From: a virus
DNA length: 64,000 bases
Virus record (IMG/VR): IMGVR_UViG_3300025659_000002
Span: 64,001-128,000 of that record
Strand: one strand, 5' to 3'
Numbering within the stretch: the stretch's first letter is position 1; each line of letters starts with the position of its first letter. The notes below the pieces were generated by a model. The model made no database searches, was not told the DNA's origin, and worked only from the letters and a program-made list of their open reading frames with translations. The position numbers and the translations under genes were made by a program. Positions 16,487 through 57,718 of the stretch are shown here, piece by piece.

Positions 16487-19400
16487 ATGAATATATATGG
16501 TCACACTTCCTTTGTCGGGCAAACTGGCTATGCCGCTCATGCTCGTGGATTTTTTAGAGCTTTAAATAACTACTTACCAGTTAAATTAAGAAATTTTTCT
16601 GTAGGGCCTTCCTGAGATGGAGTATCTGATCGTCCTCATGAAAAGGAAACATATCTAACAGACATTGATAAAGAAATGTTCATTAGGCAGACTTGTGACG
16701 AAGGTATGGATAGTGGGGTGTACAAAGGTATAGATTTTGAGATGTATAACGGAGTCGGAACTCTTCCTCCAGAAAATCCTGTTAACATAATTTTATCAGA
16801 AACAAACCACCATTACTGATTCGAAAATAGTTATCCCGGCTACAACATAGGCTATAATGTCTGAGAAAGCACTTTATATCCAAATGAGTTTTTTGAAGCA
16901 CTATTACGAAATGAAATGTTATGAGTACCCACTAAATGGCAACGCGACTGTAGTATCGCCCAAGGATACCCTGCTGATAGAGTATTTGTAGTTCCGGAGG
17001 CTGTGGACACCTCAATCTTTAACGTTAGTTCTGGAAAAAGACCAGACGAGTTTAAAGACGACCGATATAAGTTTGTATTATTTGGCAGATGGGATCATAG
17101 AAAATCTACAACAGAAATTTTAAGAGCTTTTAGTGAAGAATTTGGTGCAAATGAACCTATCGATCTGGTGTGTTCTATCGAGAATCCCCACTCGGTGGAT
17201 GGAATGAATTCTACTAAAGAACGTTTAGCTTTTCATAAAATAGAACATCCAAATATTAAAATTATACCTTTTTTACCTAGAAAAGATTACATTAATTATC
17301 TTAAATATGGAGATTGTTTTGTATCTTGCGCTAGATCGGAAGGGTGGAACTTACCCTTAATAGAAGCTATTGCTTCTGGAATTCCCACCATATGCTCAAG
17401 CCATCCGGCACAATTAGATTTTGCGGGAGGAATCTCCCAACAAGTAAGGACTATAGATCAAAGACCTATGAAGCCTTTTATGTTTGCTACAGAAGGAGTA
17501 GGATTATGAGATGAGCCTGACTTCGACCACTTAAAGGAAATAATGAGAAGCACTTATGAAAATAGAAATATAAATAAGGGCCAGGCACTTCTTAAAGCTC
17601 CTAGAGTCAATAAATTTAGTTGACAGAATGCGGCATTAACTGCTGTTGATATATTAAATAATAATGTAAATGAAAATTATTATAAAGATTTTGGAAATTA
17701 TATTACAGCTATAAAAAGTAATAATACTCCATTAATAAAAATAAATGGACCTATAAAAAAGCAATATACTGTTGAATTTCTTGAAGATAATAAAGAAGTA
17801 TATAAAGCAGAATTATCAAATGAAGATTCTTGGGCGTCTAGTTTTCCTATTTCAAAAGATACAAAAATTAGGATAAATGGCGAAGATCAATTTTTGCTTG
17901 ATAAGGTATCAAATAAAATACAAAGTACTGCTGCAAAATTAGGAGCGTATGTAGTAGGCGGTGATCTCAAATATATGCCTTATGTAGAGGCGTGTGTAAA
18001 AAGTTTATTAGAATTTTCAAAACTCCCAATAATTGTTTATGGATTTAATTGTGAAGTACCCTTTTCATATTCGAGAGTAATAAATAAAAAAATAGAATAT
18101 TCTGGAGGCAAAGTAAACCAGGTAGGTCATGTAGATAGCCAAAACTATTTTGCTAGAATAGCGGCTGCATTAGAAACTACAAAAAATGATGAATTTGATT
18201 ATTATATTTTTTTAGATGGAGATATGGTAGTGTCGGAAAATATAGACCATCTTAATACTTATGTAGATAAACTAAAACATTATCCACTATGTATGAGATA
18301 TAGATACCCCTCTTTATTACATTTTAGAGAGGATGGGGATGGGCGAAGAGAAAAGAAGCATGGAGAAGAGCTTTGCGAACTATACGGGTGAGATACCGGT
18401 AATTTACCATATAGCGGTCACACAGTGGCCACAGGTATATTTATGTATGATAAAAGATCTCAACGTTTTTTTGAAGAAGTTCTCCGAGAAGAGGCTTATA
18501 TAAGGAACATTAGTAATACAGATTCAGATGGTAAAATTTTTGTAGATGACACGGCATGCTCTGAAGAACGAATTATTAACATGTTATTTTGAAAATATAA
18601 ATATGACGAGTTTCTTCCTATAACTTGAATTTCTCCACATGACAATGTTATGGGCTTTAGCCAGGGGCATATAGCCTCCTTAAATTATTCTTCTATGTTT
18701 TTTATGGAGAATTGGCCCAAAGAAATGGATGAGATTTACCCAAAAAGCGAAGCTAATATACTAGCGTATCATCCAGAAATCGATAACAAAAATCCTAATA
18801 CTGCTTCAAAAGTATTGAGGTTTCTTAAAAAAATTAAGAAAGAGATTGTAGTTATAAGCTCTTATACTGATACCGCTAGTAAAGAAAAATTATTAAAAGA
18901 ACGCATAGCGCAAATTAAGGGGTTTGGATACGATATATTATTATCAACCCACTATGATGTTCCTCAGGAGATAAAAGATGAAGTAGATCACTATGTGTAT
19001 GATCCAAATAATGAAATATTTGAAACTCCTGAATTTTTTTGAGGAGATCTTTCTGGAGTTTATTTTGAAACTTTTTATAGTAAAAATAAAAATCATTCTT
19101 ATGCAGCGTTTACATTATTTAAAAATGCCTTTAATTACTGTAAAAACTTAGAGGTTGATACTATACATTTTTTAAATTATGATGTTTTGTTAAAATACAA
19201 TCCTTTCATTAAATTTAGAACTCTATTAAAGACCACTAATAGTTCAGGATGTTTTATTACAAGTCAATCAAACGAAGACAATATAACTTTTGAAAATGTT
19301 AGAGTTCTTATGTTTTCAGTTACCACTAAATTTAAAGGATTTGAGGGAATAGATTCTTTACAAGAATACTTAGAGCTTTCAGAAAGACAATTGGAGAAGT

Positions 19401-22399
19401 GACTTTATGAGCGTTTTAGAATGCAAAATATCTGAGATGATATTATAAAATTAGATGAAAAAACAGAAGCTTCTCAATATACAATAAAGGATTCCATAAG
19501 CTTGACAACTTATAAAGTTAATTTATTTGAAAAAAATAAAAATTTATTGGCCCTAATTTTTAGAGAAAGATTAGATGATAATGAAGTATTATTTAAATAC
19601 ACTTGCTATGAGGATACTAGAGATGTATTGGAGAGAGAGGCGCATATTAAATTTGAAACAGATAGTAAAGTGGTGGTGATTAATTTAGGAAATTTAAAAG
19701 ATGTTAAGAATATTAGTCTTTTAGATTCTCATAATGGTGTGGAAATAACTAAGGAACTAGACGAAAAAACTTTATCTGAAATAGAAAATAATATAATTAG
19801 GTTAGAAAAAGAAGTAGAAATGGTGGATCTAACAAGAAATGATATATTACAAGCTATAGAAGATAATAAACCTTTAAAAGAAGTAGTGGCTATTTTAGCC
19901 TATACTAACACCAAAGAAAAAATAGATGTTTTAAAAAAATGTATAAAGCGAATTAAGGAATTCGGATATGATATTTTGTTAGTAACACACTACCCAGTTA
20001 GTTTAGAAATACAAAAATCTGTAGAACATTATGTATATGATAGTAACAATGAAATTATAGAAATCCCGGTTACTTTTTGATTTGATAACGAAGATTATTT
20101 TGTTAAATCTGTAAATCATGAAACTCCAAATCATTCTTATGCAGTATTTTCATTATTTAAAAATGCAGAAGTATACTGTAAATCACGAGATATAGACATA
20201 ATTCATTTTTTAAACTACGATATGATTCCGCAAAAGGATTTATTTAAAATTCATAAAGAAGATTTAGGTAAAGGCGCTCATGGCTCATTTTACTACTATG
20301 ATACAGATGAGGATTCTTTTGCTATGACATTTTTTTCAATTTCTAAAAATTTTACGGCGTTCAATAATATAAATAATTCCCAGCAATATTTTAAGGCTTC
20401 TTCTTCAAGAGATGGGGATTCTAGACTGTATCTAGAGCCTTGGATTTATGATCTTATTATTAAAACAGAGGGAGAGTCTAATCTAAAAATAAGAAAATAT
20501 ATAGATGTAGAAAAGGATTATGGAGTTAAGAATTTAATTACTGATGGAGCTCTTAATATATATGGATTTGTATATAAGAAAGAATTTAGGTTAGTATTAG
20601 GTAAACCAAATATTACTGATGATTCTAAATATTTGTTAAAATATAATGGTAAGGAAATTAATTTAGATTTTTCAGGTTCTAAATTTTTTCATCATAATTT
20701 GGGATTAAGTTCTAAACTAAATAAATATCAAATATATAAAGATGGTAAATTATTCAAGAATGAGCTAGTTACAAAAGATTACAAAAAAAGAATAGAAAAA
20801 TATAACACATTTGTCGTGAAGGCTGATACTAAACTTCCTAATAAGTTGATGATAGTAGCTCACCCGGACGACGAACTTATTTTTGGAGGATACGACTTAT
20901 TAAAAGACCCTGAAGATTGAAAAGTTATATCAGTAACGGGAAAAAGTAATCCAATTAGAGCGTATGAGTTTAGCAAAGCTATGGAAACTTTAGGAGTAGG
21001 AGAATATGCTTTATGAGATTTTCCTGACTCTTTATATGATAAATTTGATGAAAAATATTTAAGAAAATTTATATTAGGTGAAACTTCTAGAAGATATTAT
21101 AAAAAAATAGTAACTCATAATTCTAACGGAGAGTACGGGCATGTACAGCATAAATCTCTTCATGATGCTATGATAGAAATTAGTCCTAGAAATTTATATA
21201 CTTTCTCGATAGGAGATAAAACTAAAATATATCCTTTAGAAGAAAAAAGAAAATTACTTGAAGTTTATGAGAGTGAGGAAACAGAATTGCCTGGTTATTT
21301 AGATTATCTTTATTACGGGGAATCAACTTCTATATTAAATGGAAATATATCAGTTGACCATAATTTTGTAGATGGACCATTTGTAGAATTGTGAGGATCA
21401 GAATCTGACCATACTTATGATATAAAATTTATTGATCAAGATTTAGAAGAGGTTGTATATGAGAAAATTGGAGTATCTGCTAATAGCTGAATTAAAGCAA
21501 GTAGAGTATATTTTACCAATTATATGATTACGGTACATAAAGGTGAAGAATTAGTGAACCAATACGCTTTTAATTGTGATAATAAACGAGTATTAATTGC
21601 GTTAGATAGCAGCTCTCTAGGAGATACTTTGGCTTGAATACCCTATGTTCAAAAGTTTAAAGAAAAACATAATTGCGAAGTAATAGTGTCTACATTCCAT
21701 AATCATTTGCTTGATTATCCAGAATTAAAGTTTATTAGTCCGGGAACTACTGTTGACAATTTATACGCAAGCTATGTAGTAGGTATTAGAGAAGATGATG
21801 ATTTCCTTCATAAAAGAAATCCATTTTCAATTCCTTTACAAGAGGTTGCTTGTGATATTTTAGGTCTCGAGTATGAAGAACTATTACCGCAAATGGCTAA
21901 GATTAAAGGACATACTGATATTGACGGTCCTTATGTATGTCTAGCGGCCCACTCCACAGCTCAGTGTAAATATTGAAATTATCCTGGAGGATGGCAAACT
22001 GTGGTAGACTATTTAAATTCAAAAGGTTATAAAGTAGTAGTTATAAGTAAAGAAGAAAGTGAATTAAATGGCATAATCGACAAAACTAACTTGAATCTTA
22101 CTGAAACAATGCGTATATTGAAACATGCTACATTCTTTATGGGATTGAGTTCAGGATTAGCTTGGCTAGCTTGAGCGTTAAAGGTGCCAGTATTAATGAT
22201 TTCCGGCTTTACAGCGCCTTGGTATGAATTTAAATGTGTTAGAATGCATAAAGACACAGTATGTCATAATTGTTTTAATGAGGAAAAATTTGATAGAGGC
22301 GATTGAAATTGATGTCCTAGAGGAAAGAATTTCGAGTGCTCTTCAAGTATTTTACCAGAGGAGGTAATTAATACTATTTATGAAAATTGAAATATCTAA
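16487..22399 (+). CDS. Giant multidomain glycosyltransferase / PIG-L deacetylase / TibC-like heptosyltransferase fusion
   Basis: 1,970 residues in one frame once about 23 TGA codons are read as Trp. Domains in order: GT4 (about 1-370; E-G-W-N-L-P-L-I-E is the E-x7-E motif near 286); a beta domain (about 397-472); a GT-A domain with F-L-D-G-D (DGD at 577-579); a repeated GT-like module (about 783-972 and 1131-1312, both with G-F/Y-x-I-L-L-x-T-H-Y and H-Y-V-Y-D); a PIG-L/LmbE deacetylase (AHPDDE at 1458-1463, G-E-Y-G-H-V-Q-H after His1544); and a C-terminal heptosyltransferase (about 1699-1970). Its C-H-N-C ... W-C-P-R ... F-E-C site (Cys1926, 1929, 1943, 1951) matches the iron-binding site of autotransporter O-heptosyltransferases such as TibC. 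It lies upstream of a Ser/Thr-rich fibre, the likely acceptor (inference). Confidence 0.85.
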
Positions 22400-22760
22400 T
22401 GGAGAATTAATAGATAAGCTATCTATTCTTCAATTAAAAACTGAGAATTTTACTGACCCAGAAAAGATTAAAAATGTACAAACAGAATTTGAGGCTTTAC
22501 AACATAGCGTTGTAGAGCTATTGAATTTCTCATTGGATTCTGAAAGTTATATGAATCTTTATAATTGTAATGCAGAGCTATGGGATATAGAGGACCAACT
22601 GCGTAGAAAAGAACAATTAAAAGAGTTTGATGAGGAATTTATAAAATTAGCGCGAGCAGTGTATTACACTAATGACACTAGAGCTAATTTAAAAAAAATA
22701 ATTAACAACGAAACCAACTCTATGTTTATTGAGGAAAAAGAATACGTAAACTATAACTAG
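22380..22760 (+). CDS. DUF6165 family protein
   Basis: 126 residues with no TGA; stop TAG. The start M-K-I-E-I-S-N-G-E-L-I-D-K-L-S-I-L-Q-L-K, the centre E-L-W-D-I-E-D-Q-L-R-R-K-E and the end A-R-A-V-Y-Y-T-N-D-T-R-A-N-L-K-K-I-I-N follow the DUF6165 pattern closely. The family is of unknown function and often sits beside glycosyltransferases. It overlaps the end of the giant fusion gene by 20 nt and precedes the collagen-like fibre by 14 nt, so it is probably an accessory subunit or adaptor of the glycosylation machinery. Confidence 0.75.
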   Translation: MKIEISNGELIDKLSILQLKTENFTDPEKIKNVQTEFEALQHSVVELLNFSLDSESYMNLYNCNAELWDIEDQLRRKEQLKEFDEEFIKLARAVYYTNDTRANLKKIINNETNSMFIEEKEYVNYN

Positions 22761-22774
22761 TTTGGAGACCCCGC

Positions 22775-25700
22775 ATGTCAGGACAAATAAAAGCCAAACA
22801 AATATCGGATGTATATAGCCAATCACAGGCTAATGCAACATTTTCAGCAAAATCCCACAACGCATCCGCCGCACCACCAGCGTCCCCAATAACTGGACAG
22901 ACTTGGTGAGATTCATCTAATGAAGTATTAAAAACATGAACAGGTAGTACATGAGTAGCCTCTGAAGGTACCTCAGGTACTTCTGGCTCAAGCGGAGCTA
23001 GCGGTGCTAGCGGTACTTCCGGATCAAGCGGAGCTAGCGGTGCTAGCGGTACTTCCGGAACTAGCGGTACTTCTGGATCAAGCGGATCAGCAGGTTCAAG
23101 CGGATCTTCGGGGACTTCCGGAACTTCTGGAACTTCAGGATCAAGCGGAACTTCAGGATCAAGCGGTACGAGTGGTACAAGTGGTACGAGTGGTACTTCA
23201 GGTTCAAGCGGTTCAGCAGGTTCAAGCGGTTCAAGCGGTACGAGTGGTACTTCTGGATCAAGCGGGACTTCAGGAACTTCAGGATCAAGCGGATCATCAG
23301 GATCAAGCGGAACTTCGGGAACTTCTGGTTCAAGCGGGACTTCAGGAACTTCTGGTTCAAGCGGGTCAGCAGGATCAAGCGGTTCTTCCGGAACTTCCGG
23401 ATCAAGCGGTACGAGTGGAACTTCAGGATCTTCTGGAGAGAAAGGAGTTACTGGAGATTCAGGATCAAGTGGATCAAGCGGAACCTCAGGCTCTTCTGGA
23501 GCTAAAGGAGACGCTGGAACGAGTGGTTCAAGCGGAACTTCTGGTTCAAGCGGAACTTCAGGATCAAGCGGTACTGGCGGTACTTCTGGGTCTTCTGGAG
23601 GAGTTGGAACGAGCGGTACTTCAGGATCAAGCGGAGCAGCAGGAACTTCAGGTTCAAGTGGAGATACGGGGGTGCCCGGAGCTTCAGGGTCAAGTGGTTC
23701 TTCCGGAACCTCAGGATCAAGCGGTACGAGTGGTACTTCGGGGTCAAGTGGAACTAGCGGTACTAGTGGTACTTCGGGTTCGAGTGGATCAAGCGGTTCA
23801 AGCGGTTCAAGCGGTACGAGTGGTACTTCAGGTTCAAGCGGTACGAGTGGTACTTCAGGTTCAAGCGGATCAAGCGGTTCAAGTGGATCAAGCGGTACGA
23901 GTGGTACTTCCGGAACTAGCGGAACTTCGGGATCGAGTGGAGCAGCTGGAACTTCAGGAACAAGCGGTTCAAGCGGAATAGACGGAACTTCCGGGTCAAG
24001 TGGTACGAGCGGTATAGGCGGAACTTCCGGATCTTCAGGAGGTGCAGGTACAAGTGGTACTTCTGGATTAAGCGGTACGAGTGGTACGAGCGGTTCTTCT
24101 GGGACTTCCGGATCAAGCGGGACTTCTGGATCAAGCGGTTCAAGCGGTTCAAGCGGCACAAGCGGTACTTCCGGTTTAAGCGGAACGTCAGGTTCAAGCG
24201 GTACAAGTGGAACTTCAGGATCAAGCGGAACTTCAGGATTAAGCGGAACTTCAGGATCAAGCGGTACAAGTGGAACTTCAGGTTCAAGCGGATCAGCAGG
24301 ATCAAGCGGTTCAAGCGGATCAAGCGGATCAAGCGGTACGAGTGGTACTTCGGGGTCAAGTGGAACTAGCGGTACGAGCGGTACTTCGGGCTCAAGCGGG
24401 GATAGTGGTACGAGTGGTACTTCAGGGTCAAGTGGGACTTCAGGAATTAGCGGTACTTCAGGGTCAAGTGGGACTTCAGGAATTAGCGGTACTTCAGGAT
24501 CAAGCGGAACTAGCGGTACTAGCGGTACTTCTGGGTCAAGCGGGACTAGCGGTACTAGCGGTACTTCTGGGTCAAGCGGGACTGCGGGTACAAGCGGTAC
24601 TTCTGGATCAAGTGGAACTAGCGGTACAAGTGGAACCTCAGGGTCAAGCGGTTCAAGCGGTTCAAGTGGAACTAGCGGTTCAAGCGGAACTTCAGGAACT
24701 TCTGGAACTTCAGGTTCAAGCGGAACTAGCGGTACGAGTGGTACCTCTGGATCAAGCGGTTCAAGCGGTTCAAGCGGTGTAAGCGGCACTTCCGGATCAA
24801 GCGGTACGAGTGGTACTTCAGGTTCAAGCGGTTCAGCAGGTTCAAGCGGTTCAAGTGGAACTTCAGGAACTAGCGGAACTTCAGGATCAAGCGGAACCTC
24901 AGGAACTTCAGGATCAAGCGGTACGAGTGGAACTTCGGGATCTTCTGGAGAAAAAGGAGTTATTGGGGATTCAGGATCTAGCGGGTCAAGTGGGACCTCG
25001 GGCTCTTCTGGAGCGAAAGGAGACGCTGGAACAAGCGGTTCAAGCGGAACTTCCGGAACTAGCGGAACTTCAGGTTCAAGCGGTACTGGCGGTACCTCTG
25101 GGTCTTCTGGAGGAGTTGGAACTAGCGGAACTTCAGGATCAAGCGGAGCTGCAGGAACTTCCGGTTCAAGCGGTACTTCCGGTTCAAGCGGAACTTCCGG
25201 AACTAGCGGAACTTCGGGTTCAAGTGGAACTTCCGGAACTAGCGGAACCTCAGGATCAAGCGGTATAAGTGGAACTTCAGGATCAAGCGGTTCAAGCGGT
25301 TCAAGCGGATCAAGCGGAACCTCAGGATCAAGCGGTACAAGTGGTACGAGTGGTACTTCAGGTTCAAGCGGTACGAGTGGTACAAGTGGTACTAGCGGGT
25401 CGTCTGGAACTAGCGGGTCAAGTGGAACTTCCGGTTCAAGTGGTACGAGCGGAACCTCAGGATCTTCTGGAGAAAAAGGGGTTACGGGGGATTCAGGTAC
25501 AAGCGGCTCAAGTGGAACTAGCGGTACAAGTGGAACTTCAGGATCAAGCGGAACTAGCGGTACGAGTGGTACTAGCGGGTCATCTGGAACAAGCGGATCA
25601 AGCGGAACTTCAGGAACTTCTGGAACTTCAGGATCAAGCGGAACTTCAGGAACTTCTGGAACTTCCGGGTCAAGCGGAACTTCAGGAACTTCAGGAACTT

Positions 25701-28459
25701 CAGGTTCAAGTGGATCTGCAGGATCAAGTGGTTCTTCCGGAACTTCAGGATCAAGCGGTACAAGCGGTACTAGTGGTACTTCGGGGTCAAGCGGTACAAG
25801 TGGTACGAGTGGTACTTCAGGTTCAAGCGGAACTAGTGGTACTTCTGGGTCAAGCGGTTCAGCAGGTTCAAGCGGTTCAAGCGGAACCTCTGGTTCAAGT
25901 GGTACTTCAGGCTCAAGTGGAACTTCAGGTACAAGCGGAACTTCAGGTTCAAGCGGAACTTCAGGTACAAGCGGAACTTCTGGGTCAAGCGGTTCAGCAG
26001 GTTCAAGCGGTTCTTCCGGAACCTCAGGTTCAAGCGGTACGAGTGGTACTTCAGGATCAAGCGGTACAAGTGGAACTTCAGGATCAAGCGGAACTTCAGG
26101 ATCAAGCGGAACTTCAGGAACTTCAGGATCAAGCGGAACTTCAGGAACTTCAGGTTCTAGCGGAACCTCCGGGTCAAGTGGAACTTCAGGAACTTCAGGT
26201 TCAAGTGGATCGGCAGGTTCAAGCGGTTCAAGCGGAACTTCGGGATCAAGCGGAACTTCAGGAACTTCAGGTTCAAGCGGTTCAAGCGGATCATCAGGAT
26301 CAAGCGGAACTTCCGGGTCAAGCGGAACTTCAGGAACTTCAGGTTCAAGCGGATCAGCAGGATCAAGTGGCTCTTCCGGAACCTCCGGGTCAAGCGGTAC
26401 GAGTGGAACTTCCGGGTCAAGCGGTACGAGCGGAACCTCCGGATCAAGTGGTTCAAGCGGTTCAAGCGGTTCAAGCGGTTCAAGCGGTTCAAGCGGAACG
26501 TCTGGATCATCTGGTAACACCGGAAATGCAGCCGGACATGTCCAGTACAACTTTGACAGCTCAACAACTGTAGCAGATCCGGGATCTGGAGACTTACGAT
26601 TAAACAATGGGACTCAAAACGCGGCTACCGTTATAATCTGTTCCGATGAGGACATTTTAGCGGTAGATGTACAGGGGTTACTGGCAACCTTCGACGACTC
26701 TACTAGCGCGGTTAAAGGTCACATCGTGCTCAGCGAGACTTATGTACCTGAAAACTGATTAATATTCCAAGTGAATTCTATAACCGAGGGACCAGGATAC
26801 TGGCAGATCGGAGTAACTAACGTAGATTCTTCCGCAGCATCACCTTTCTCAAATCTAGATCGTCTAGTTTTAAATTATTTCCGTACAGGAGATGCAGGGA
26901 CTAGTGGTTCAAGCGGTACGAGTGGTTCAAGCGGTTCAGCAGGTTCAAGCGGATCTTCAGGGACTTCCGGATCAAGCGGTACGAGTGGTACTTCAGGATC
27001 AAGCGGTACGAGTGGTACTTCAGGTTCAAGCGGTTCGGCAGGTTCAAGCGGTTCTTCAGGAACTTCAGGTTCAAGCGGAACTTCAGGTTCAAGCGGTACA
27101 AGCGGAACTTCTGGGTCAAGCGGTTCAGCAGGATCAAGTGGCTCTTCCGGAACCTCCGGGTCAAGCGGTACGAGTGGAACTTCCGGGTCAAGCGGTACAA
27201 GCGGAACCTCCGGATCAAGTGGTTCAAGCGGGTCAAGCGGTTCAAGTGGAACTTCAGGATCAAGCGGTTCAAGCGGTTCAAGCGGTTCAAGCGGAACGTC
27301 TGGATCATCTGGTAACACCGGAAATGCAGCCGGACATGTCCAGTACAACTTTGACAGCTCAACAACTGTAGCAGATCCGGGATCTGGAGACTTACGATTA
27401 AACAATGGGACTCAAAACGCGGCTACCGTTATAATCTGTTCCGATGAGGACATTTTAGCGGTAGATGTACAGGGGTTACTGGCAACCTTCGACGACTCTA
27501 CTAGCGCGGTTAAAGGTCACATCGTGCTCAGCGAGACTTATGTACCTGAAAACTGATTAATATTCCAAGTGAATTCTATAACCGAGGGACCAGGATACTG
27601 GCAGATCGGAGTAACTAACGTAGATTCTTCCGCAGCATCACCTTTCTCAAATCTAGATCGTCTAGTTTTAAATTATTTCCGTACAGGAGATGCAGGGACT
27701 AGTGGTTCAAGCGGTACGAGTGGTTCAAGCGGTTCAGCAGGTTCAAGCGGATCTTCAGGGACTTCCGGATCAAGCGGTACGAGTGGTACTTCAGGATCAA
27801 GCGGTACGAGTGGTACTTCAGGTTCAAGCGGTTCGGCAGGTTCAAGCGGTTCTTCAGGAACTTCAGGTTCAAGCGGAACTTCAGGTTCAAGCGGATCATC
27901 AGGATCAAGTGGGTCCTCTGGGACTTCCGGTTCAAGCGGGTCAAGCGGCTCCTCAGGTTCAAGCGGAACTAGCGGCTCTTCAGGAAGCTCCTTCACCTAT
28001 TCCCCTTCTAACGATAATAGAGTATTAAGAAGTGATACCGTAGGATCGGACGGAGTGCAGGAAACAGGTATAACCGTCGATGATTCTGACAACATGAGCG
28101 GAATAGCAGAACTATCAGCTACTGTAAAAAAATTCGTAATAATACATCCTACTAAAAAAGATTATAAATTACAGCACAGTGCTCTTGAAGGGCCTGAGCA
28201 TGGAGTCTATATTAGAGGTAAACTCAATATTGAGGATTCAATAATTCTACCTAATTATTGGGAACAATTGGTGGATACATCAACTATTTCAGTACACTTA
28301 ACTCCTATAAGATACTATCAAAAACTTTACGTGGATACTATTCAGGACAAAATAATTCTAATTAAAGAAGCAGACTCTAAACCTATATACTGTTTCTATG
28401 AGGTTAGAGCCGAACGTAAAGACGTTGATAAACTAGAGGTCGAGGTACCATGTCAGTAG
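22775..28459 (+). CDS. Giant collagen-like Gly-X-Ser repeat tail fibre
   Basis: 1,894 residues with five TGA codons; stop TAG. The N-terminal 65 residues include G-Q-T-W-W-D-S-S-N-E-V-L-K-T-W-T-G-S-T-W, with three of the Trp from TGA. From about residue 65 to 1245 the protein is almost only Gly-X-Y triplets (GSS, GTS, GSA, GAS) with no Pro beyond one GVP-like site. A 129-residue globular domain occurs twice (about 1247-1375 and 1513-1641), each followed by more triplets. The C-terminal domain (1738-1894) has E-G-P-E-H-G-V-Y-I-R-G-K-L and Y-Y-Q-K-L-Y-V, typical of phage adhesin ends. A trimeric collagen-like fibre is expected. Its Ser/Thr content and location make it the prime candidate glycosylation substrate. 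Confidence 0.85.
22966..26512 (+). repeat. Low-complexity 9-bp based repeats encoding Gly-Ser/Thr-Ser triplets
   Basis: The DNA is built from 9-bp codon blocks such as GGT-TCA-AGC and GGA-ACT-TCA with shuffled Gly and Thr codons. Ser-Ser pairs are nearly always TCA-AGC or TCT-TCT/TCT-TCC. The block order is irregular, so no simple long unit dominates before 26490. The region stays open in other frames and on the reverse strand as a by-product of the repeat. Confidence 0.9.
26497..27893 (+). repeat. Tandem duplication of fibre domain, 798-bp offset
   Basis: The block starting near 26497 recurs 798 bp downstream with essentially no base changes across the globular domain (26512-26898 and 27310-27696) and into the following triplets (to about 27095 and 27893). 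A smaller 771-bp offset upstream shows a 27-bp insertion in the second copy. Confidence 0.88.
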
Positions 28460-29127
28460 GTTACGGAACATCATTAGTTAACGACAGCTTAGTTTTTTGT
28501 CTAGATGCTGCAAACCCCAAGAGCTATATCGGTGATGGGGATTGGTATGATTTAATCAAGGACAACAATGGAACTAACTATGGACCAACTTATAGTTCAG
28601 ACTATGGTGGGATTTTCTTATTTGATAGAGCTTCTTCTCATTATTTTTATATAGGAAATCCAGCAGAGCTCTCTTTAGGTTCTAATTTTACAGTAGAAGC
28701 CTGAGTACGAGCTGACGCAGATGCTTGGATGTATTTTCTATACAACGGCTATAATCAAAATAACAGCTTCTGAATGGGAACACACCCCACCGCCAATGCT
28801 TGGTGACACGGTACTTATTATAACACTTCTTATAATTATTTGAGTAATGGTACTGACTCTGTAGAAATAGGAGTATGAACTCGCTGTGCTCTAACTTTTG
28901 ATGGTGCCAAATTTAATTGTTATATTAACAAAGAACACACAGTTACTGACGATCTATGATCTAATGATGCTTTTTCAAACCCAAGTACTGGAATTCAAAT
29001 AGGCAGTTCTTCGGGAAGTCGCGCTTGAGAAGGAGCTATAGCTGTTATTAAAGTATATAATACTGTTCTATCTGAAATTGAATTAGATAGAAACTATGAC
29101 GCTTTAAAAGGCAGGTTCGGCTTATAA
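28450..29127 (+). CDS. LamG-like (concanavalin-fold) lectin 1 of 5
   Basis: 225 residues with several TGA codons (VEAWVRAD, FWMG, VWTR, LWSN, AWEG). The LamGL pattern is clear: L-V-F-C-L-D-A-A-N-P-K-S-Y, a W-Y-D-L strand, N-F-T-V-E-A-W-V, C-A-L-T-F-D-G and I-A-V-I-K-V-Y-N-T-V-L-S, ending R-N-Y-D-A-L-K-G-R-F-G-L. It overlaps the fibre gene by 10 nt. It is probably a receptor-binding or fibre-tip protein recognising surface glycans (family knowledge plus context). Confidence 0.75.
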
Positions 29128-29834
29128 TGGCACTTCAACACTCACCAAGAATAGTTACTGATGGGCTCATCTTCATGATAGATGCTGCCAATCCTAAGTG
29201 TATGCAAGCAGGCGATACCACTTGTACAGATTTAATAGGAGCTAAAACTTGTACAGGCGCTAGCGGTACTCCTGCGGCAGGGGCGCACACTCCGAACCCA
29301 GCTTACTTTCCAGAGTACAATGATCTCTATGGTGGGGGTGTGTTTGATTGTGCTGGTGGAAGAGGGATGAACGTAGAAGAAAGTTTAGGCTCTCATACAG
29401 AAGTGAGTGTTTGTACGTGACTTTATAAAAATTCCTCAAGCGCACAATACATAACTGACGGAAGAAATAACGGCGGCACTTGGTATATATTTAACTATAC
29501 CTCACCACAAACTAACTTGTCTTGGGCAAACCAACTTACACATACTTTCAGTGATCCTAAAGAAGCTGACGATGAAGCTTTTATGAATAAATGAATTTAC
29601 TTGGTTATCGCAGCAGATGCCTCTGCTGGTACTTTCTTTGTTAACGATGAATCAGTTGCTACCGGTGGCCCTATAACTGATAGTTTGGGAGTAAATTTTA
29701 GAATAGGTACTAGGTATACTACATCGGCCCCTTGAACAGGTTATATGGGTCCTATACAAATCTATGATAGAAAAATAACACTTGCAGAAGTGCAACAAAA
29801 CTTTAACGCACATAGATCGAGGTTCGGGGTATAA
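29127..29834 (+). CDS. LamG-like lectin 2 of 5
   Basis: 235 residues with TGA at TWLYK, KWIYL and PWTGY. It starts MALQHSPRIVTDGLIFMIDAA, very close to the fourth paralogue (MAFYHSPRIVTDGL), and ends N-F-N-A-H-R-S-R-F-G-V, the family's common tail. Extra Cys residues near the N-terminus (K-C-M, T-T-C-T-D, T-C-T-G, D-C-A-G) set it apart from the others and might form disulphides or metal sites. A one-base overlap with each neighbour keeps the five genes co-translated. Confidence 0.75.
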
Positions 29835-30538
29835 TGGGTTGTCATGAGGGGCCGCGATGAGAAACCGATGGTTTAAAATGATGCGTAGATCCCGCTAGTT
29901 CTAAAAGCTATAGCGGGTCAGGCTCGGATGTTTATGATTTAAGTTCTGGTAACTATAGTAGTACTATAACGTCCGCGACTCACAACGGCACTGGTCCAAA
30001 ATCTTTTGTGTTTGCCGCTAACCCGGATAGAATAGAAACGTCTTCCTCAACTTGATGAACTACTCCTACAAGTATGAGCGTATCTACATGATTTAAAATG
30101 ACAGGCGGGGGCGGTACCTATAGAACTGTTATTCACAAAAGTAATACAGGTGCAACCTCTGTAGGCTCGAGTCAATTCTGAACAGGTATAACTGCAGCGG
30201 GTACTTTGTGTGCTACTATTGGAGCAGCTACTGGTGGAATAGGTTGGGCTGCAGGGAATACTACCACCACAGGTACTTTAGATATTTGATGGAATTTAGC
30301 CGCAGTTTGGAATGGTGCCAATGTGCGAGTCTTTATAAATGGAGTCTATAACAAGCAATATGATTTAGGAGAATACCCTGTTGGCGATTACGCAGTACGA
30401 GTAGGGGCTTCTGGTGATGCTGGTACCTACCAAGTTATAGGTAAAATTCCCATGGTTACAGCAAATCACAATGTCGCACTAAGTGACGAACAAGTTGCAC
30501 AAAACTTTGATACACACAAATCGAGGTTCGGACTCTAA
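29834..30538 (+). CDS. LamG-like lectin 3 of 5
   Basis: 234 residues with at least eight TGA codons (PRWET, LKWCV, STWWT, STWFK, QFWTG, IWWN), the highest density among the five. It is hidden under the standard code. The fold markers are W-C-V-D-P-A-S-S-K-S-Y, M-S-V-S-T-W-F-K and A-A-V-W-N-G-A-N-V-R-V-F-I-N-G, ending N-F-D-T-H-K-S-R-F-G-L. As in the other copies, many TGAs sit on Trp positions expected in this fold, for example the strand before the second sheet. A role in host recognition is inferred. Confidence 0.72.
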
Positions 30539-31227
30539 TGGCTTTTTATCACTCACCACGAATAGTTACTGACGGATTGATAGCATATTTTGATGCGCTT
30601 AACCCAAAATCCTATCCCGGAAGTGGAACATTATTATATGATTTGACTGATCTCACTAATATTGCCGATGTAAAAAATTCCCCAACATATAATGCTGATG
30701 GAAGTTTTAGTATGAATGGCACTGATCAATATATTAATATGGGCACCTGCGAACAGTATTATCCAGCTACAGGAAGCTTAAGTTTGTGTGCAAGTATATG
30801 AGTAAAAGATACTGCAAGTGAAAATAGTGTTGTACTTGGGCAGCAAAACGTAGCCAACGAAAGACTATATATTGGTAGATACTCAGGTAATTGAAACATG
30901 GCTTGAGGAGAACAACATTGGGGCGATTCATATACTGGAGATTTAGTAGCAACTAGTGCTGGATTTGATAATGTGGTATTAAACGTGATAAAAGGAGTAC
31001 CAACTTTATATGTTAATGCTGTAGAAACTATCAGTAGAACGGGGGACACTAATGTATCCTTAACTGGCCCATTTCCGCTTGGTGCGTATTTTGGAGCACC
31101 TGGTGTGTATATTGACGCTTCCTCAGGTCCAAACGATAGTGCTATATGTCAATTATATAGTAGAAATCTATCAGTAGCAGAACTTACTCAAAACTTTAAT
31201 GCACTAAAAGGAAGGTTCGGAATATAA
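30538..31227 (+). CDS. LamG-like lectin 4 of 5
   Basis: 229 residues with TGA at SIWVKD, NWNMAW and following positions. The start MAFYHSPRIVTDGLIAYFDALNPKS nearly matches paralogue 2, pointing to a duplication inside the array. The core strands include Q-Y-I-N-M-G-T, S-L-C-A-S-I-W-V-K and A-I-C-Q-L-Y-S-R-N-L-S, and the end is N-F-N-A-L-K-G-R-F-G-I. It is coupled to both neighbours by TAATG overlaps. The ligand cannot be predicted from sequence. Confidence 0.75.
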
Positions 31228-31931
31228 TGACTGTAGTAGGCGGGCCAAATATAATAAGGGATAACTTATCGTTTTATGTAGATGCAGCTAATATAGACTC
31301 ATATCCAGGTAGCGGGTCTACTTGAACGGATTTAAGTGGCAATGGTTTTGGAAATGCATTATTCGGAGCTACAACATATTCAACGAGCCCAGATAAGTTT
31401 GATACCAATGCGACTGATCATTTAACAGCTGACCATTTATCATTAAATGCAACTATTACATACGCTGACGCTTCTGCGTATACCTTTGAATTTGTAGTCA
31501 AGTTAAGAGCGTCCGCTACAGCGACTTATCAAGGATTAGTTGGATATGGGTCTACAAATCCTTGACTAACGTTATATGCAAATAACACTTCTGGAAGTTC
31601 GTGAGATTTGCGGTTTAGAGATAATGCCGCAGCTTATAATACTTTTTCTGATATTACTGATTATAATATACAAAATAATTGGGCTCATATAGCTATCGTA
31701 GTAGGGACAGATAGGAATATGTTATTTTATTTAAACGGAGCATGAAAACAAACTAAAGCTCTAACTACTTCTCTTTGTAGAGTACAAAGAATATGTGGGG
31801 GATATTCTTCTGGAGGAAATTATTACTCTTTACAAGGGTCAATGGCGTTATCTAGAGGATATACTTCAGATTTAAGCGCTACCGAAATATTACAAAACTT
31901 TAATGCTACTAAGGATAGGTTTAGTATTTAA
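31227..31931 (+). CDS. LamG-like lectin 5 of 5
   Basis: 234 residues with four TGA codons (STWTDL, NPWLTL, SSWDLR, GAWKQT). The segment S-F-Y-V-D-A-A-N-I-D-S-Y-P-G-S-G-S-T-W-T-D-L-S-G-N is a textbook start for phage LamGL proteins, in which S-T-W-x-D-L-S-G-N is conserved, and here its Trp is TGA. The end N-F-N-A-T-K-D-R-F-S-I closes the array. It is the last gene of the P3 operon, 8 nt before the -35 box of promoter P4. Confidence 0.75.
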
Positions 31932-31973: not shown

Positions 31974-34900
31974 ATGGCTAAAGATATTACAATCACTCCC
32001 GGAAGTGGAACTATTGAGTTTCACGATTTAGCTGGGGCAGTACAAATTACTCTTGAAGTACTAGATGACGGTACATTACAATGATCTGGTAGTTCAGGAG
32101 CTTTATTTTCTTTAGTAGATAGTTTAACAGGGGTAGTGCTGTCTGCAAATGATATATCTGGCTTACCTATTTTTGAAGTAGATGCCGATAGTGACAAAGT
32201 AACTATGGGCTCTTATGGCAATAATACTTTTACAGTATCCGGCCTTCTAGCCGGATTTCAAACAGCCAATCCAACTGAAGCACTACATCTTGCCGATGGG
32301 TATGCGCTATTACCAAATGGCACAAGAATTAATGAATTCTCAACAGACGGCACATTAGGCGACGATAGTGATGACGCAGTACCTACTGAAAAAGCAGTAA
32401 AAACAGCCATTGATGCTGCAACCCTGGCCGGAACTTCCGGAACCTCCGGATCAAGCGGTTCAAGCGGTTCAAGCGGTTCAAGCGGTTCAAGCGGAACCTC
32501 TGGTTCAAGCGGTACGAGTGGTACTTCAGGATCAAGTGGTTCAGCAGGTTCAAGCGGCTCAAGCGGTACGAGCGGAACTTCAGGTTCAAGCGGATCAGCA
32601 GGTTCAAGCGGATCTTCAGGGACTTCCGGATCAAGCGGTACGAGTGGGTCTTCTGGTGGGGCTGGTACAAGTGGAACTTCAGGATCAAGCGGAACTTCCG
32701 GTTCAAGTGGTACGAGCGGAACCTCAGGATCGAGTGGTTCAGCAGGGTCAAGCGGTTCAAGCGGCTCAAGCGGTTCAAGTGGAACTTCAGGAACTTCAGG
32801 TTCAAGCGGTTCAGCAGGTTCAAGCGGTACGAGTGGTACTTCAGGATCAAGCGGTGCGAGCGGATCTTCCGGTTCATCCGGATCAAGTGGAGCTACTGGA
32901 AACGCAGGAACAAGCGGGTCAAGCGGTACGAGCGGTACGAGCGGTACTTCAGGTTCAAGCGGTGCGAGCGGATCTTCCGGTTCATCCGGATCAAGTGGAG
33001 CTACTGGAAACGCAGGGACAAGTGGTTCAAGCGGTACGAGCGGATCTTCCGGTTCATCCGGATCAAGTGGAGCTACTGGAAACGCAGGAACAAGTGGTTC
33101 AAGTGGAACTAGCGGTACTTCAGGATCAAGCGGTTCAGCAGGCTCAAGCGGATCTTCCGGTTCATCCGGATCAAGTGGAGCTACTGGAAACGCAGGAACA
33201 AGCGGGTCTTCAGGAAACTCAGGAAATCATGCCGGGTATATTGAGTACACATTCGATTCATCTACCTCTATGGCTGACCCAGGTGACGGGGATTTTAGAC
33301 TAAATCACGCCACGCAGTCTAGTGCTACAATTATAGCTTGTGATCATTTAGATGTAAATGGTACAGGTGTTGAGTATTTAATGGATACTTTCGATGATTC
33401 CTCAAGCACAATGGTAGGAAATCTTTATCTAGCTGGTAAGTATTCACCAGAAAATTGGTCTTATTGGCAAGTTAGTTCTCTTTCAAAAGAAACAGGTTAC
33501 ACTGAAATTACTATAAGCATTAGAGATGCTTCAGAAGCTAACCCATTTACTAATGGAGACGCGGTAGTATTAAGTTTTTTCCGTACAGGAGATAAAGGAG
33601 ATACAGGAGCAGGAGGAACTTCTGGGTCAAGCGGAGCAAGCGGATCTTCCGGTTCATCCGGATCAAGTGGAGCTACTGGAAACGCAGGGACAAGTGGTTC
33701 AAGCGGAACTTCCGGAACCTCAGGATCGAGTGGTTCAGCAGGGTCAAGCGGTTCAAGCGGCTCAAGCGGTTCAAGTGGAACTTCAGGAACTTCAGGTTCA
33801 AGCGGTTCAGCAGGTTCAAGCGGTACGAGTGGTACTTCAGGATCAAGCGGTGCGAGCGGATCTTCCGGTTCATCCGGATCAAGTGGAGCTACTGGAAACG
33901 CAGGAACAAGCGGGTCAAGCGGTACGAGCGGTACGAGCGGTACTTCAGGTTCAAGCGGTGCGAGCGGATCTTCCGGTTCATCCGGATCAAGTGGAGCTAC
34001 TGGAAACGCAGGGACAAGTGGTTCAAGCGGTACGAGCGGATCTTCCGGTTCATCCGGATCAAGTGGAGCTACTGGAAACGCAGGAACAAGTGGTTCAAGT
34101 GGAACTAGCGGTACTTCAGGATCAAGCGGTTCAGCAGGCTCAAGCGGATCTTCCGGTTCATCCGGATCAAGTGGAGCTACTGGAAACGCAGGAACAAGCG
34201 GGTCTTCAGGAAACTCAGGAAATCATGCCGGGTATATTGAGTACACATTCGATTCATCTACCTCTATGGCTGACCCAGGTGACGGGGATTTTAGACTAAA
34301 TCACGCCACGCAGTCTAGTGCTACAATTATAGCTTGTGATCATTTAGATGTAAATGGTACAGGTGTTGAGTATTTAATGGATACTTTCGATGATTCCTCA
34401 AGCACAATGGTAGGAAATCTTTATCTAGCTGGTAAGTATTCACCAGAAAATTGGTCTTATTGGCAAGTTAGTTCTCTTTCAAAAGAAACAGGTTACACTG
34501 AAATTACTATAAGCATTAGAGATGCTTCAGAAGCTAACCCATTTACTAATGGAGACGCGGTAGTATTAAGTTTTTTCCGTACAGGAGATAAAGGAGATAC
34601 AGGAGCAGGAGGAACTTCTGGGTCAAGCGGAGCAAGCGGATCTTCCGGTTCATCCGGATCAAGTGGAGCTACTGGAAACGCAGGGACAAGTGGTTCAAGC
34701 GGAACTTCCGGAACCTCAGGCTCAAGCGGAGCAAAGGGGGCAACCGGAACTTCCGGGTCAAGCGGAGCAAGCGGATCTTCCGGTTCATCCGGAACCTCAG
34801 GCTCAAGCGGAGCAAAAGGAGATGCGGGTACTTCAGGATCAAGCGGAGCAGCAGGAACTTCAGGTTCAAGCGGAGCTAGCGGTGCTAGCGGTACTTCAGG

Positions 34901-35843
34901 TTCAAGCGGAGCAAGCGGATATTGAACAGAATCTGGTGGTGAAATATACTATGCTAATAATGTAGGAATTGGAAATACTAATCCAGCAAAACGTTTTCAT
35001 ATAACTGGATCGGGTACAGGGGCATTAGCTCCAGCTTTTAGATTGGAAAACACTGACTCATCAGTTGCAGATTGGCAAATGGTAGCACATAGTTCTAATT
35101 ACTTTTCTTTTAATGAAGTAGGATTATCTGGAAGATTTTATATAAATAACGGCGGTGATTGTGGAATTACAGTAGTACCAACTACTTATAGATTTGAGGT
35201 TAATGGTGGCTCATCGGGCGGAGATATTCTTTGTTTCGATTTATATACACATGATGGAGGAGTACATACTTCTGATGCTAGGTTAAAAGAAAATATTGTA
35301 CCCGCTACACTGGGTCTTAATTTTATCGATACATTAAATCCTGTTAGCTATAAATGAAAAACAGTTCCAGAAAGAGATCAAATGGAAACTGGTAATAATG
35401 TAGCCCTAACAACTATAAATAAAGAAGTAACTTCAGAAGAAATAGTATTTGAAAACGGCAAGTATGTAAAAAAAGTTACAACATCATTACAAGACGTAGA
35501 AGTGCCGGTAATAGATGTACATGATTTATATAATGATGCTGGGGAAATTATAGGCCAACATGAAATACCTCGAATGGAGCCTTATGAAACAGTTCATCAT
35601 ACGTTTCCTGAAGAAACATTTAGCCGAACCCATTATGGATTGGTAGCACAAGAGGTAGAAACCGCTCTTACTAATGCTGGACTAACCACTACAGATTTTG
35701 CAGGATTTATTTATGAAGATAAAAGAGATACATATGGACTTAGATATACTGAGTTTATAGCTCCAATGATAAAAGCTATTCAAGAACTGTCAGCCAAAGT
35801 AACACAGTTAGAAGCTGATTCACATACTCATGGCAATAATTAA
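31974..35843 (+). CDS. Collagen-like Gly-X-Ser fibre with C-terminal peptidase S74 chaperone
   Basis: 1,289 residues with three TGA codons (LQWSG, GYWTE, YKWKT). After a 150-residue N-terminal domain (A-D-G-Y-A-L-L-P-N-G, S-T-D-G-T-L) come Gly-X-Ser triplets with recurrent G-A-T-G-N-A-G spacers. A globular domain is present twice (about residues 415-549 and 747-881). From residue 983 a head domain leads to the S74 intramolecular chaperone: H-T-S1100-D-A-R-L-K1105-E-N-I, then N-P-V-S-Y-K-W, H-Y-G-L-V-A-Q-E-V and Y-T-E-F-I-A-P-M-I-K-A-I-Q-E-L. In this family the chaperone assembles the trimer and then cleaves itself off before the Ser, using a Ser-Lys pair. It is probably a side-tail fibre and a second substrate for glycosylation. 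Confidence 0.88.
32724..34715 (+). repeat. Contiguous 996-bp tandem duplication in S74 fibre gene
   Basis: Copy 1 runs from about 32724 to 33719 and copy 2 from 33720 to 34715. They look identical by eye, including the globular domain (33216-33620 and 34212-34616) and the synonymous codon choices in the triplet regions. The copies are adjacent and in frame (332 residues each). Confidence 0.88.
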
Positions 35844-37786: not shown

Positions 37787-39418
37787 ATGGCTTATACTAA
37801 ACCAGGTGTGTCGGTAGAGCAGGTCAATAATAACACTACACCAATTCTTCAAGCGCCAAACCTAACAGCATGCATGATTGGAAGATCATACTGGTGACAG
37901 GATCCAGCGTTAGATGAATCTACGTATAGTACAAAATATACTGATGCAGGCGGACTGACCATCGCATTGTCTGGAATAAATTCTAGTTACAATGAACTTA
38001 CTAGTGTAAGTGGCTTAACAACGGTAGATTTAATAATTACTAAAGGTAACGGAACAAGTAATACAATACATGTACCAATAGCTAATATTACTAGAAGTGG
38101 ACTTAATCACTTAGTAATAGATGCTGGATTACTGGTAAGTAACGGCGGAGAGGCTACCGGAGAAGCGGATGCCAAAGTAGGGTATTTAGCTACAAATTCC
38201 GGCTCACAAGGATTTAATACACACGCAAGTGTTGCCGATATAAGAGATGTCTTAGGCCCTATTGTATCTTGGAACCCATTAGCTTTTGGGGTATACCTAG
38301 CTATGTCAAATTCAGGATCTGAAATTCAGTCTTATGGAGTATCGGCAGATAGTCCTACGGCTGTAGGTGGGTATTCTGATGCATACGATGCTTTAGAAAC
38401 TAAAGAATCTTATGCCTTAGTACCTTTAACTGAAAAAGATTTAGCGGTTGGTACAATTAGTACTCACTGTAATACTATGTCAGCAGCAGCTGGTAAGAAA
38501 GAGAGAATAGCTTTCGTAGCTCCTCAGGTGTTATGGGACCCACTGGGAACTGCCCACGCAGAAACTAGTTCACAAAAATTAGTTACTGCGGGCTTAGTAG
38601 GTGACGCAAACTCAGCTTATGAATCTAAACGTATATTCTCAGTACACCCTGATGCAGGATATCTACAAGAAACTAGACATATTAGTACAATTCATCCAGA
38701 TTGGATAGCTAGTAGTTTTAGCCTTTTTACTAATGTGAGTTTTTCTATATATGAGTTATATGCTAAATTTGCAGCGGATGTACGAATTAATAGTGTACTA
38801 TACAAGAAAGGTAGTAAGATTACAAGTACAATTTGGAGTGCCTTAGTGGCAGCTGAATGGGGTACTGCAGGAATGGTTACGGTATTAGTACCTGTACCAG
38901 GATTTTATTATGGAGCAGAGGCCGCGGGGTTAGTAGCTGGAGAATCTCCAGAACAACCACTTACTAGGCTTCCGATTTCAATAATGAAACAAACATATGG
39001 ATCTCAAGATTATTTTTCTGAAGCTCAATTAAATAGAATGGCCCAAGGTGGTACATATATTATGACTCAGAATTCTGATTTTAGTTCAGTATATTGTAGA
39101 CATCACTCGAGCACAAATGTAACGAGTGTGGCAAAACGAGAGCTTAGTGTAACTAAGGCTGTGGATTATACTTCTAAATTTATTAGAGATGGGTTAGATC
39201 CGTATATCGGACGAAATACTATTAGTCCTAGTTTTTTAAAATTTGTAAATTCAGTATTAGTGAGTATAGGACTATTTTTAACTCGAAAAAACTATATTGA
39301 TGATTTACAAGTGGTATCAATTGTACAAAATAGCGTTAATGCGGATACAATAGATGTAGAAATTAATTTACTACCTTTATATCCAGCCAATTATATCACA
39401 ATCAAGTTAGTATTCTAG
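37787..39418 (+). CDS. Contractile tail sheath protein
   Basis: 543 residues; one TGA directly after a TGG (S-Y-W-W-Q-D) near residue 36; stop TAG. GGAGG lies 8-12 nt before the ATG. The N-terminus M-A-Y-T-K-P-G-V-S-V-E-Q is the typical start of sheath proteins. The C-terminal domain (FLKFVNSVLVSIGLFL, then DLQVVSIVQNSVNADTIDVEI and PLYPANYITIKLVF) matches the conserved inner sheath domain. It forms the contracting outer tail layer, so the phage is a myovirus. The tube gene follows 12 nt later, the usual order. Confidence 0.87.

Positions 39419-55583: not shown

Positions 55584-57718
<2,135 letters not shown>

Follow-up and report, generated by a model that had tools for sequence, protein, structure and literature searches.

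The closest described relatives of the enzyme treated here are the autotransporter heptosyltransferases TibC and AAH (family TIGR04414), which act on Ser residues of long repetitive acceptors. Mutation studies of TibC have shown that Asp110, Lys230, Trp305 and four iron-finger Cys residues matter, Arg286 contacts the adenine of ADP-heptose, and a beta-hairpin thumb assembles the dodecameric ring (eLife 2014 e03714, PMC4358343). Glycans on phage structural proteins, namely on capsid and tail-tube C-termini, have been described for mycobacteriophages (Freeman et al. 2023, as cited in PMC12619734 and PMC12894461), and a Gly-X-Y collagen-like region is present in the side-tail fibre EPclA of an E. 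coli prophage (PMC3368898). The locus reported here lies in the virus record IMGVR_UViG_3300025659_000002 (163,945 bp), of which bases 64,001–128,000, a stretch of 64,000 nucleotides referred to as the window, were analysed by computation throughout. It encodes a 1,970-residue fusion protein (P0001) of several glycosyltransferase (GT) modules that ends in a TibC-type domain, followed by fibre proteins consisting largely of Gly-X-Ser triplets. On the combined evidence we consider it probable that the phage encodes, and expresses late, a machine dedicated to the O-glycosylation of its own collagen-like tail fibres.

The C-terminal domain of the fusion protein (residues 1618–1964) matches the TIGR04414 profile (hepto_Aah_TibC) with 265 bits, compared to a curated equivalog cut-off of 200, and nine other TibC-type proteins tested score 272–484 bits. 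The GT9 profile is matched by residues 1800–1911 (E=7e-8), and comparison with the TibC structure (PDB 4rap) gives E=3.7e-47. The catalytic Asp110 is retained, together with the sugar-binding residues Thr226, Lys230 and Trp305 and the four iron-finger Cys residues (339, 342, 358 and 370; TibC numbering); Asp110 and Lys230 correspond to residues 1713 and 1828 of the fusion protein. In the 66 phage domains compared, Asp110 and Trp305 are present in all, and Lys230 and each iron-finger Cys in 65. By profile and by most of its active site the domain is a member of TIGR04414; an identity as lipopolysaccharide (LPS) heptosyltransferase was rejected, as the TIGR04414 score far exceeds that of any LPS heptosyltransferase model. 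The initial annotation had read a heptosyltransferase with an iron-site pattern at this position, naming the lack of a TibC/GT9 match as evidence to the contrary. All four Cys and the catalytic Asp proved to be retained, and the match, which extends to the catalytic residues, is very strong.

Homology to TibC and AAH extends over the whole domain, and a Ser at TibC position 300 is shared with AAH, an enzyme that tolerates both heptose stereoisomers (PMC4358343). Unlike these enzymes, the window domain is preceded by GT4, GT-A and other modules, has lost Arg286, and has a shortened thumb. The thumb segment is 23 residues long in the window protein, compared to 33 in both TibC and a classical Paraburkholderia enzyme, and has 22–24 residues in 44 of the 66 phage domains. 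Because of this shortening, the window domain probably does not form a dodecamer of the TibC type.

The proposed acceptor is the 1,894-residue fibre encoded downstream of the fusion gene. It contains 479 Gly-X-Y triplets, with Ser at 435 of the 479 Y positions and Thr or Ser at 437 of the X positions. A second fibre of 1,289 residues, likely to be a further acceptor, has 198 such triplets (Ser at Y in 155). Stable collagen triple helices are usually rich in proline. In the 677 triplets of both fibres Pro is found once at Y, in the first fibre, and never at X. This differs from EPclA, which has Pro at about half of its X positions and charged triplets, and whose recombinant protein is not glycosylated, the collagen domain melting at 42 C (PMC3368898). 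The initial annotation had placed a DUF6165 gene and a Ser/Thr-rich fibre in one operon with the fusion gene, which was confirmed, with the refinement that the fibre has a collagen-type Gly-X-Y repeat and is not merely rich in Ser and Thr.

The association of TibC-type enzymes with such fibres was analysed in both directions. When 2.9 million viral contigs were scanned with a TibC-domain alignment, at least 554 relatives were obtained among at least 600 stretches, and the best 80 were taken as TibC loci; these are the most similar matches and not a random draw, and metagenomic contigs are fragments. Proline-poor Gly-X-(Ser/Thr) tracts were scored within the sequence retrieved around each locus, which reached at most 10 kb to either side. 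Such a tract was found at 49 of the 80 TibC loci and at 0 of 134 random viral loci (p=2e-27, before clustering), which had been chosen by arbitrary DNA words (two patterns) and have nearly the same total number of bases. After clustering of the TibC domains at 70% identity, 24 clusters had 6 kb or more of sequence to either side, and a tract was found in 17 of these, the window included. Conversely, in contigs selected solely by a GTSGSSGTSG DNA pattern, a TibC domain was present in 20 of 50, compared to 0 of 50 random contigs (p=2e-7), and in 14 of the 20 contigs of at least 60 kb. It was absent from all 38 contigs selected by a proline-collagen pattern. This pattern (GGNCC period) is palindromic and a real collagen tract is present in the retrieved sequence of about two thirds of the 38; since it partly matches non-collagen frames, the random set is the cleaner control. 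GT2 domains showed no link with the fibres (16/50 Gly-X-Ser contigs versus 14/50 random contigs).

Chance adjacency was rejected on the basis of the 0/134 random loci and 0/50 random contigs, and a general effect of GT-rich phages on that of the GT2 control. TibC-type domains occur commonly in phages from metagenomes, and their link to proline-free Gly-X-Ser/Thr fibres is a specific one. Two further components recur near TibC: DUF6165 at 20 of the 80 loci (8 of 40 clusters, mostly directly adjacent) and an unnamed GT-A-like module at 30 of the 80, both compared to 0 of 253 control loci. The initial annotation had the fusion enzyme build a glycan and attach it to the Gly-X-Ser triplets. Of this, the partnership of enzyme and fibre is upheld by the two-way controlled association in dozens of divergent phages; the heptose and the modified residue go beyond the evidence.

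The fusion protein is encoded by a single frame (16487–22399, plus strand) when TGA is read as Trp; its Trp codons are 23 TGA and 9 TGG, and TAA and TAG do not occur. Four residues of the C-terminal domain encoded by TGA (W1717, W1896, W1940 and W1942) are Trp in 39 of 39 aligned relatives, which directly supports the reading of TGA as Trp; in the late genes this reading is certain. The same 1,970-residue frame was recovered from six further contigs with 99–100% identity. Its modules and the neighbouring genes are listed in Table 1.

Table 1. Coordinates (in the window) of the modules of the fusion protein and of neighbouring genes
Feature	Position	Strand	Basis or remark
GT4 glycosyltransferase domain, residues ~1-400	16487..17686	+	PF00534, phrog_2170
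GT-A fold glycosyltransferase domain, residues 475-783	17909..18835	+	DxD invariant in relatives; recurs in TibC fusions
Unnamed GT-A-like module, copy 1, residues 784-1075	18836..19711	+	Homology to copy 2 and to modules of other phages
Unnamed GT-A-like module, copy 2, residues 1130-1395	19874..20671	+	Same family as copy 1
PIG-L/LmbE-type de-N-acetylase domain, residues 1454-1565	20846..21181	+	PF02585; AHPDDE and GHxxH motifs
TibC/Aah-type O-heptosyltransferase domain, residues 1618-1964	21338..22378	+	TIGR04414, PDB TibC
DUF6165 gene	22380..22760	+	PF19662, E=5e-14; overlaps end of fusion gene
Proline-free Gly-X-Ser collagen-like fibre, 1,894 residues (proposed acceptor)	22775..28459	+	Pfam Collagen, E=1e-186
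Five tandem genes, ~230 residues each, Laminin_G_3 lectin-like	28450..31931	+	Between the two fibres; virion context
Second Gly-X-Ser collagen-like fibre, 1,289 residues, C-terminal Peptidase_S74 chaperone	31974..35843	+	Collagen, E=3e-78; Peptidase_S74, E=3e-12

The GT4 domain is recognised by PF00534 (residues 188–309, E=7e-10, 39.1 bits with a cut-off of 26.4) and by phrog_2170 (E=8e-25), and retains the E-x7-E motif as E285 and E293, which are nearly invariant. In the GT-A domain the DxD motif corresponds to the invariant alignment positions D103 and D105. An AlphaFold2 model of residues 475–783 has a predicted template-modelling (TM) score, pTM, of 0.78, and its best solved matches in Foldseek are GT6 enzymes and glycogenin/LARGE1, i.e. 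GT6/GT8-type enzymes (probability 1.00, E ~1e-8, TM ~0.5). The two unnamed modules belong to a family in which one Asp and one Glu are invariant, and homologues are fused to TibC or located beside it in other phages; its stand-alone copies have no Pfam match. The model of this module, built with alignment rows from the window and the scan loci only, has a pTM of 0.72 and gives Foldseek matches with probability 1.00 and E ~1e-5, but with a TM of just ~0.3–0.4; the module is a family of its own, probably with a remote GT-A fold. The PIG-L domain matches PF02585 (E=2e-10, 41.6 bits with a cut-off of 28.2), and its AHPDDE and HxxH metal motifs can be seen in the translation. The coordinates of the six-module chain that the initial annotation had described hold when TGA is read as Trp, and its domains are confirmed, with a probable GT-A-like fold for the two unnamed modules.

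A core of GT4 and TibC was found in 38 of 40 sampled diverse fusion proteins, with methyltransferases, FkbM, GT2 and Gly_transf_sug as variable extras. The window protein is the longest of 110 distinct TibC-type frames and the only one with a PIG-L domain among the 40 fusions scanned. The idea that no described phage system has this domain chain can thus be kept for the extra length and the PIG-L domain, which are special, but not for the GT4 and TibC core, which is not isolated. The differing extras suggest that one kind of fibre may carry different glycans in different phages. In one locus (L061) and in a huge phage of 735 kb (L015) the same modules are encoded by adjacent separate genes beside a Gly-X-Ser protein. 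A phage fusion of 1,625 residues (L086:1518-6392), another extreme of this architecture, combines a central TibC domain with flanking GT4, GT2 and two methyltransferase domains. The cultured Microcystis phage Mel-JY01 also encodes a fusion of GT4, the module and TibC (WWT39291.1, annotated as methyltransferase FkbM), and a Gly-X-Ser tract lies at a distance of about 2.5 kb. This protein differs from that of the window in its length of 1,226 residues, in its standard genetic code, and in a methyltransferase-like stretch that replaces the GT-A domain, the second module and PIG-L.

In the classical enzymes the target is a strand-loop-strand repeat, represented by TIGR04415, and the phage partner is instead a Gly-X-Ser collagen-like fibre. 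TIGR04415 was found over cut-off in the Paraburkholderia genome, which has a classical enzyme and a TibC locus without a Gly-X-Ser tract. It was over cut-off in none of 41 related TibC phage contigs (a search outside which the window's own record falls) and in none of three bacterial genomes with GSS/GTS repeats near TibC. In two of these three records the repeats are in secreted or lipoprotein-like proteins: in Methylomicrobium (L098:9836-11924) and in a gammaproteobacterial metagenome-assembled genome (L099:7941-11107), a stand-alone TibC-type gene is located near the gene for a small GTS/GSS repeat protein of secreted or lipoprotein-like type, and these two loci are possibly a non-phage version of the pair. 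A quick tree, with the root assumed on TibC, separates all phage domains and the Gly-X-Ser-linked bacterial domains from E. coli TibC and the Paraburkholderia enzyme, which lie outside them (SH-aLRT 97); this is consistent with a single change of target. The phage TibC-type domains would best be read as a branch of the autotransporter heptosyltransferases that has switched target and is mostly thumb-less.

The gene order is compact: six bases separate the preceding frame from the start of the fusion gene, and 14 bases the DUF6165 gene from the first fibre gene. The latter overlaps the next gene, and five lectin-like genes and the second fibre follow. A tail-sheath gene is located at 37787–39418; this identifies the phage as contractile-tailed and the operon as a tail/fibre operon. 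Late expression of the fusion gene is likely, judging from its 23 TGA codons, as opposed to the early-type minus-strand genes, most of which are without any TGA codon.

Based on what is known of these families, we propose that the TibC-type domain would attach the first sugar, probably heptose from host-made ADP-heptose, to Ser of the Gly-X-Ser repeats, the acceptor most likely being Ser at the Y position. This sugar would then be extended by the other transferase parts of the polypeptide (GT4, GT-A and both GT-A-like modules), and the PIG-L domain would deacetylate an N-acetylated sugar to give a free amine; the DUF6165 protein may be an accessory of the TibC-type enzyme. Candidate purposes are stabilisation of the proline-free collagen-like helix, shielding against proteases or receptors, and host recognition.

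Several observations weigh against glycosylation of the fibre as proposed. About 30% of the well-flanked TibC clusters are without a Gly-X-Ser tract inside 10 kb, TibC was not detected in 6 of the 20 large Gly-X-Ser contigs, and adjacency and co-occurrence do not name the acceptor. Arg286 of TibC is Thr in the window protein, and is Arg in 14 of 66 phage domains, so that the donor may differ. Proteins of the families SIS_2 (PF13580, GmhA-type) and CTP_transf_like (PF01467, HldE-type) were not found in the 164-kb record, which is itself incomplete, and therefore any ADP-heptose that is used would have to be supplied by the host or by genes beyond the part of the genome covered by the record.

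Since adjacency leaves the acceptor unnamed, another virion protein (LamG-like, sheath or capsid) could be modified, the Gly-X-Ser fibres being merely common in the same phages, and for mycobacteriophages the glycans are indeed reported on capsid and tail tube; the passages of the citing papers that deal with this work mention neither a TibC-type enzyme nor a collagen-like fibre. We regard such an acceptor as unlikely, in view of the long repetitive acceptors on which TibC-type enzymes act: the repetitive, Ser-rich protein that their surroundings have in common is the Gly-X-Ser tract, and GTS/GSS repeats are also near three bacterial TibC loci. It seems similarly improbable that the target of the fusion enzyme is LPS (O-chain or core) on the host surface, changed so as to block superinfection, with the fibre as a mere neighbour, although this role has often been proposed for glycosyltransferases of phages. 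GT4, GT-A, GT9 and, in relatives, methyltransferases are typical of LPS pathways, and the glycosyltransferases of SAR11 phages have been read as modifiers of the host surface (PMC7029224). However, the C-terminal domain scores as a protein O-heptosyltransferase, far over any LPS heptosyltransferase model, the Gly-X-Ser fibres are tracked by TibC and not by GT2, and the TGA-rich gene lies within the tail/fibre operon, whereas a change of the host surface would be expected early. The phage's own fibre is favoured over host LPS because of the likely late timing, the operon position and the co-occurrence statistics.

Modification of DNA is a very remote prospect. Some phage glycosyltransferases do glycosylate DNA (also cited in PMC12619734), but Pfam, PHROGs and NCBIfam give no match to a DNA glycosyltransferase for any domain, the TibC domain comes from a protein-directed family, and the gene is in the tail operon. 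Equally hard to credit is the view that the fusion arose as an artefact of assembly or belongs to a gene in decay, so that the chain would not be one protein. The frame does require a recoded stop codon, and a tRNA with a UCA anticodon was not found in the record; against this, the frame recurs in the six other contigs, Trp is found at the four TGA sites in all 39 relatives, the active-site motifs of the GT4, GT-A, PIG-L and TibC parts are intact, and related fusions of up to 1,625 residues exist in other phages.

Some further observations concern the tRNA genes, the codon usage and the neighbouring genes. With ARAGORN no tRNA with a UCA anticodon was found in the 164-kb record, the tRNA-Trp found having a CCA anticodon only; this tRNA-Trp, at positions 57260–57332 of the genome (L011:17260-17332), has an ordinary-looking D arm. 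A 205-kb contig of the same virus exists, which is longer than the 164-kb record. For a tRNA-like gene on the minus strand (L009:3602-3674) ARAGORN gives only 'cc' as anticodon, and an anticodon loop of eight bases, AGTCCGCT, can be seen by eye; this gene could be a frameshifting tRNA or be decaying. The TGA codons cluster in structural-type genes (those of the plus strand and some of the minus strand, at 124–130 kb), a distribution that resembles that of described phages which recode stop codons in late genes. The five lectin-like genes look paralogous (Laminin_G_3/ConA-like), each abutting or overlapping its neighbour; PF13385 is over cut-off in genes 1–3 and under cut-off in gene 4, and gene 5 has only a weak DUF7604 match. 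Antisense frames with PEVPLEP repeats (22726–26724, minus strand; L002:739-2298, minus strand) mirror the Gly-X-Ser repeats and do not appear from their sequence to be genes; in Microcystis phage Mel-JY01 an annotated gene that covers the real fibre seems to be such a frame. Comparison of positions 26994–27096 in the first fibre with another contig of the same virus (L008) reveals an internal duplication or deletion in the repeats, pointing to a variable number of repeats in the fibre.

The open-licence PMC literature yielded no account of TibC being paired with Gly-X-Ser fibres in phages, an absence that is weak evidence, and the system is apparently both undescribed and widespread. As a tentative and rather speculative extension, many aquatic phages might have glyco-collagens, in which thumb-less TibC-type O-glycosylation of Ser at Y would replace the stabilising role of proline and hydroxyproline, and in which the variable fused modules would write phage-specific glycans that set host recognition or shielding. 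If the proposed function is true, a large class of phage glycosyltransferases that are usually taken as modifiers of host LPS or DNA would gain a specific acceptor and a role. It would also hint at how the proline-free Gly-X-Ser fibres commonly found in phages from metagenomes could maintain their stability. The adhesin-glycosylation family seems to have switched its target, from strand-loop-strand autotransporters to collagen-like fibres.

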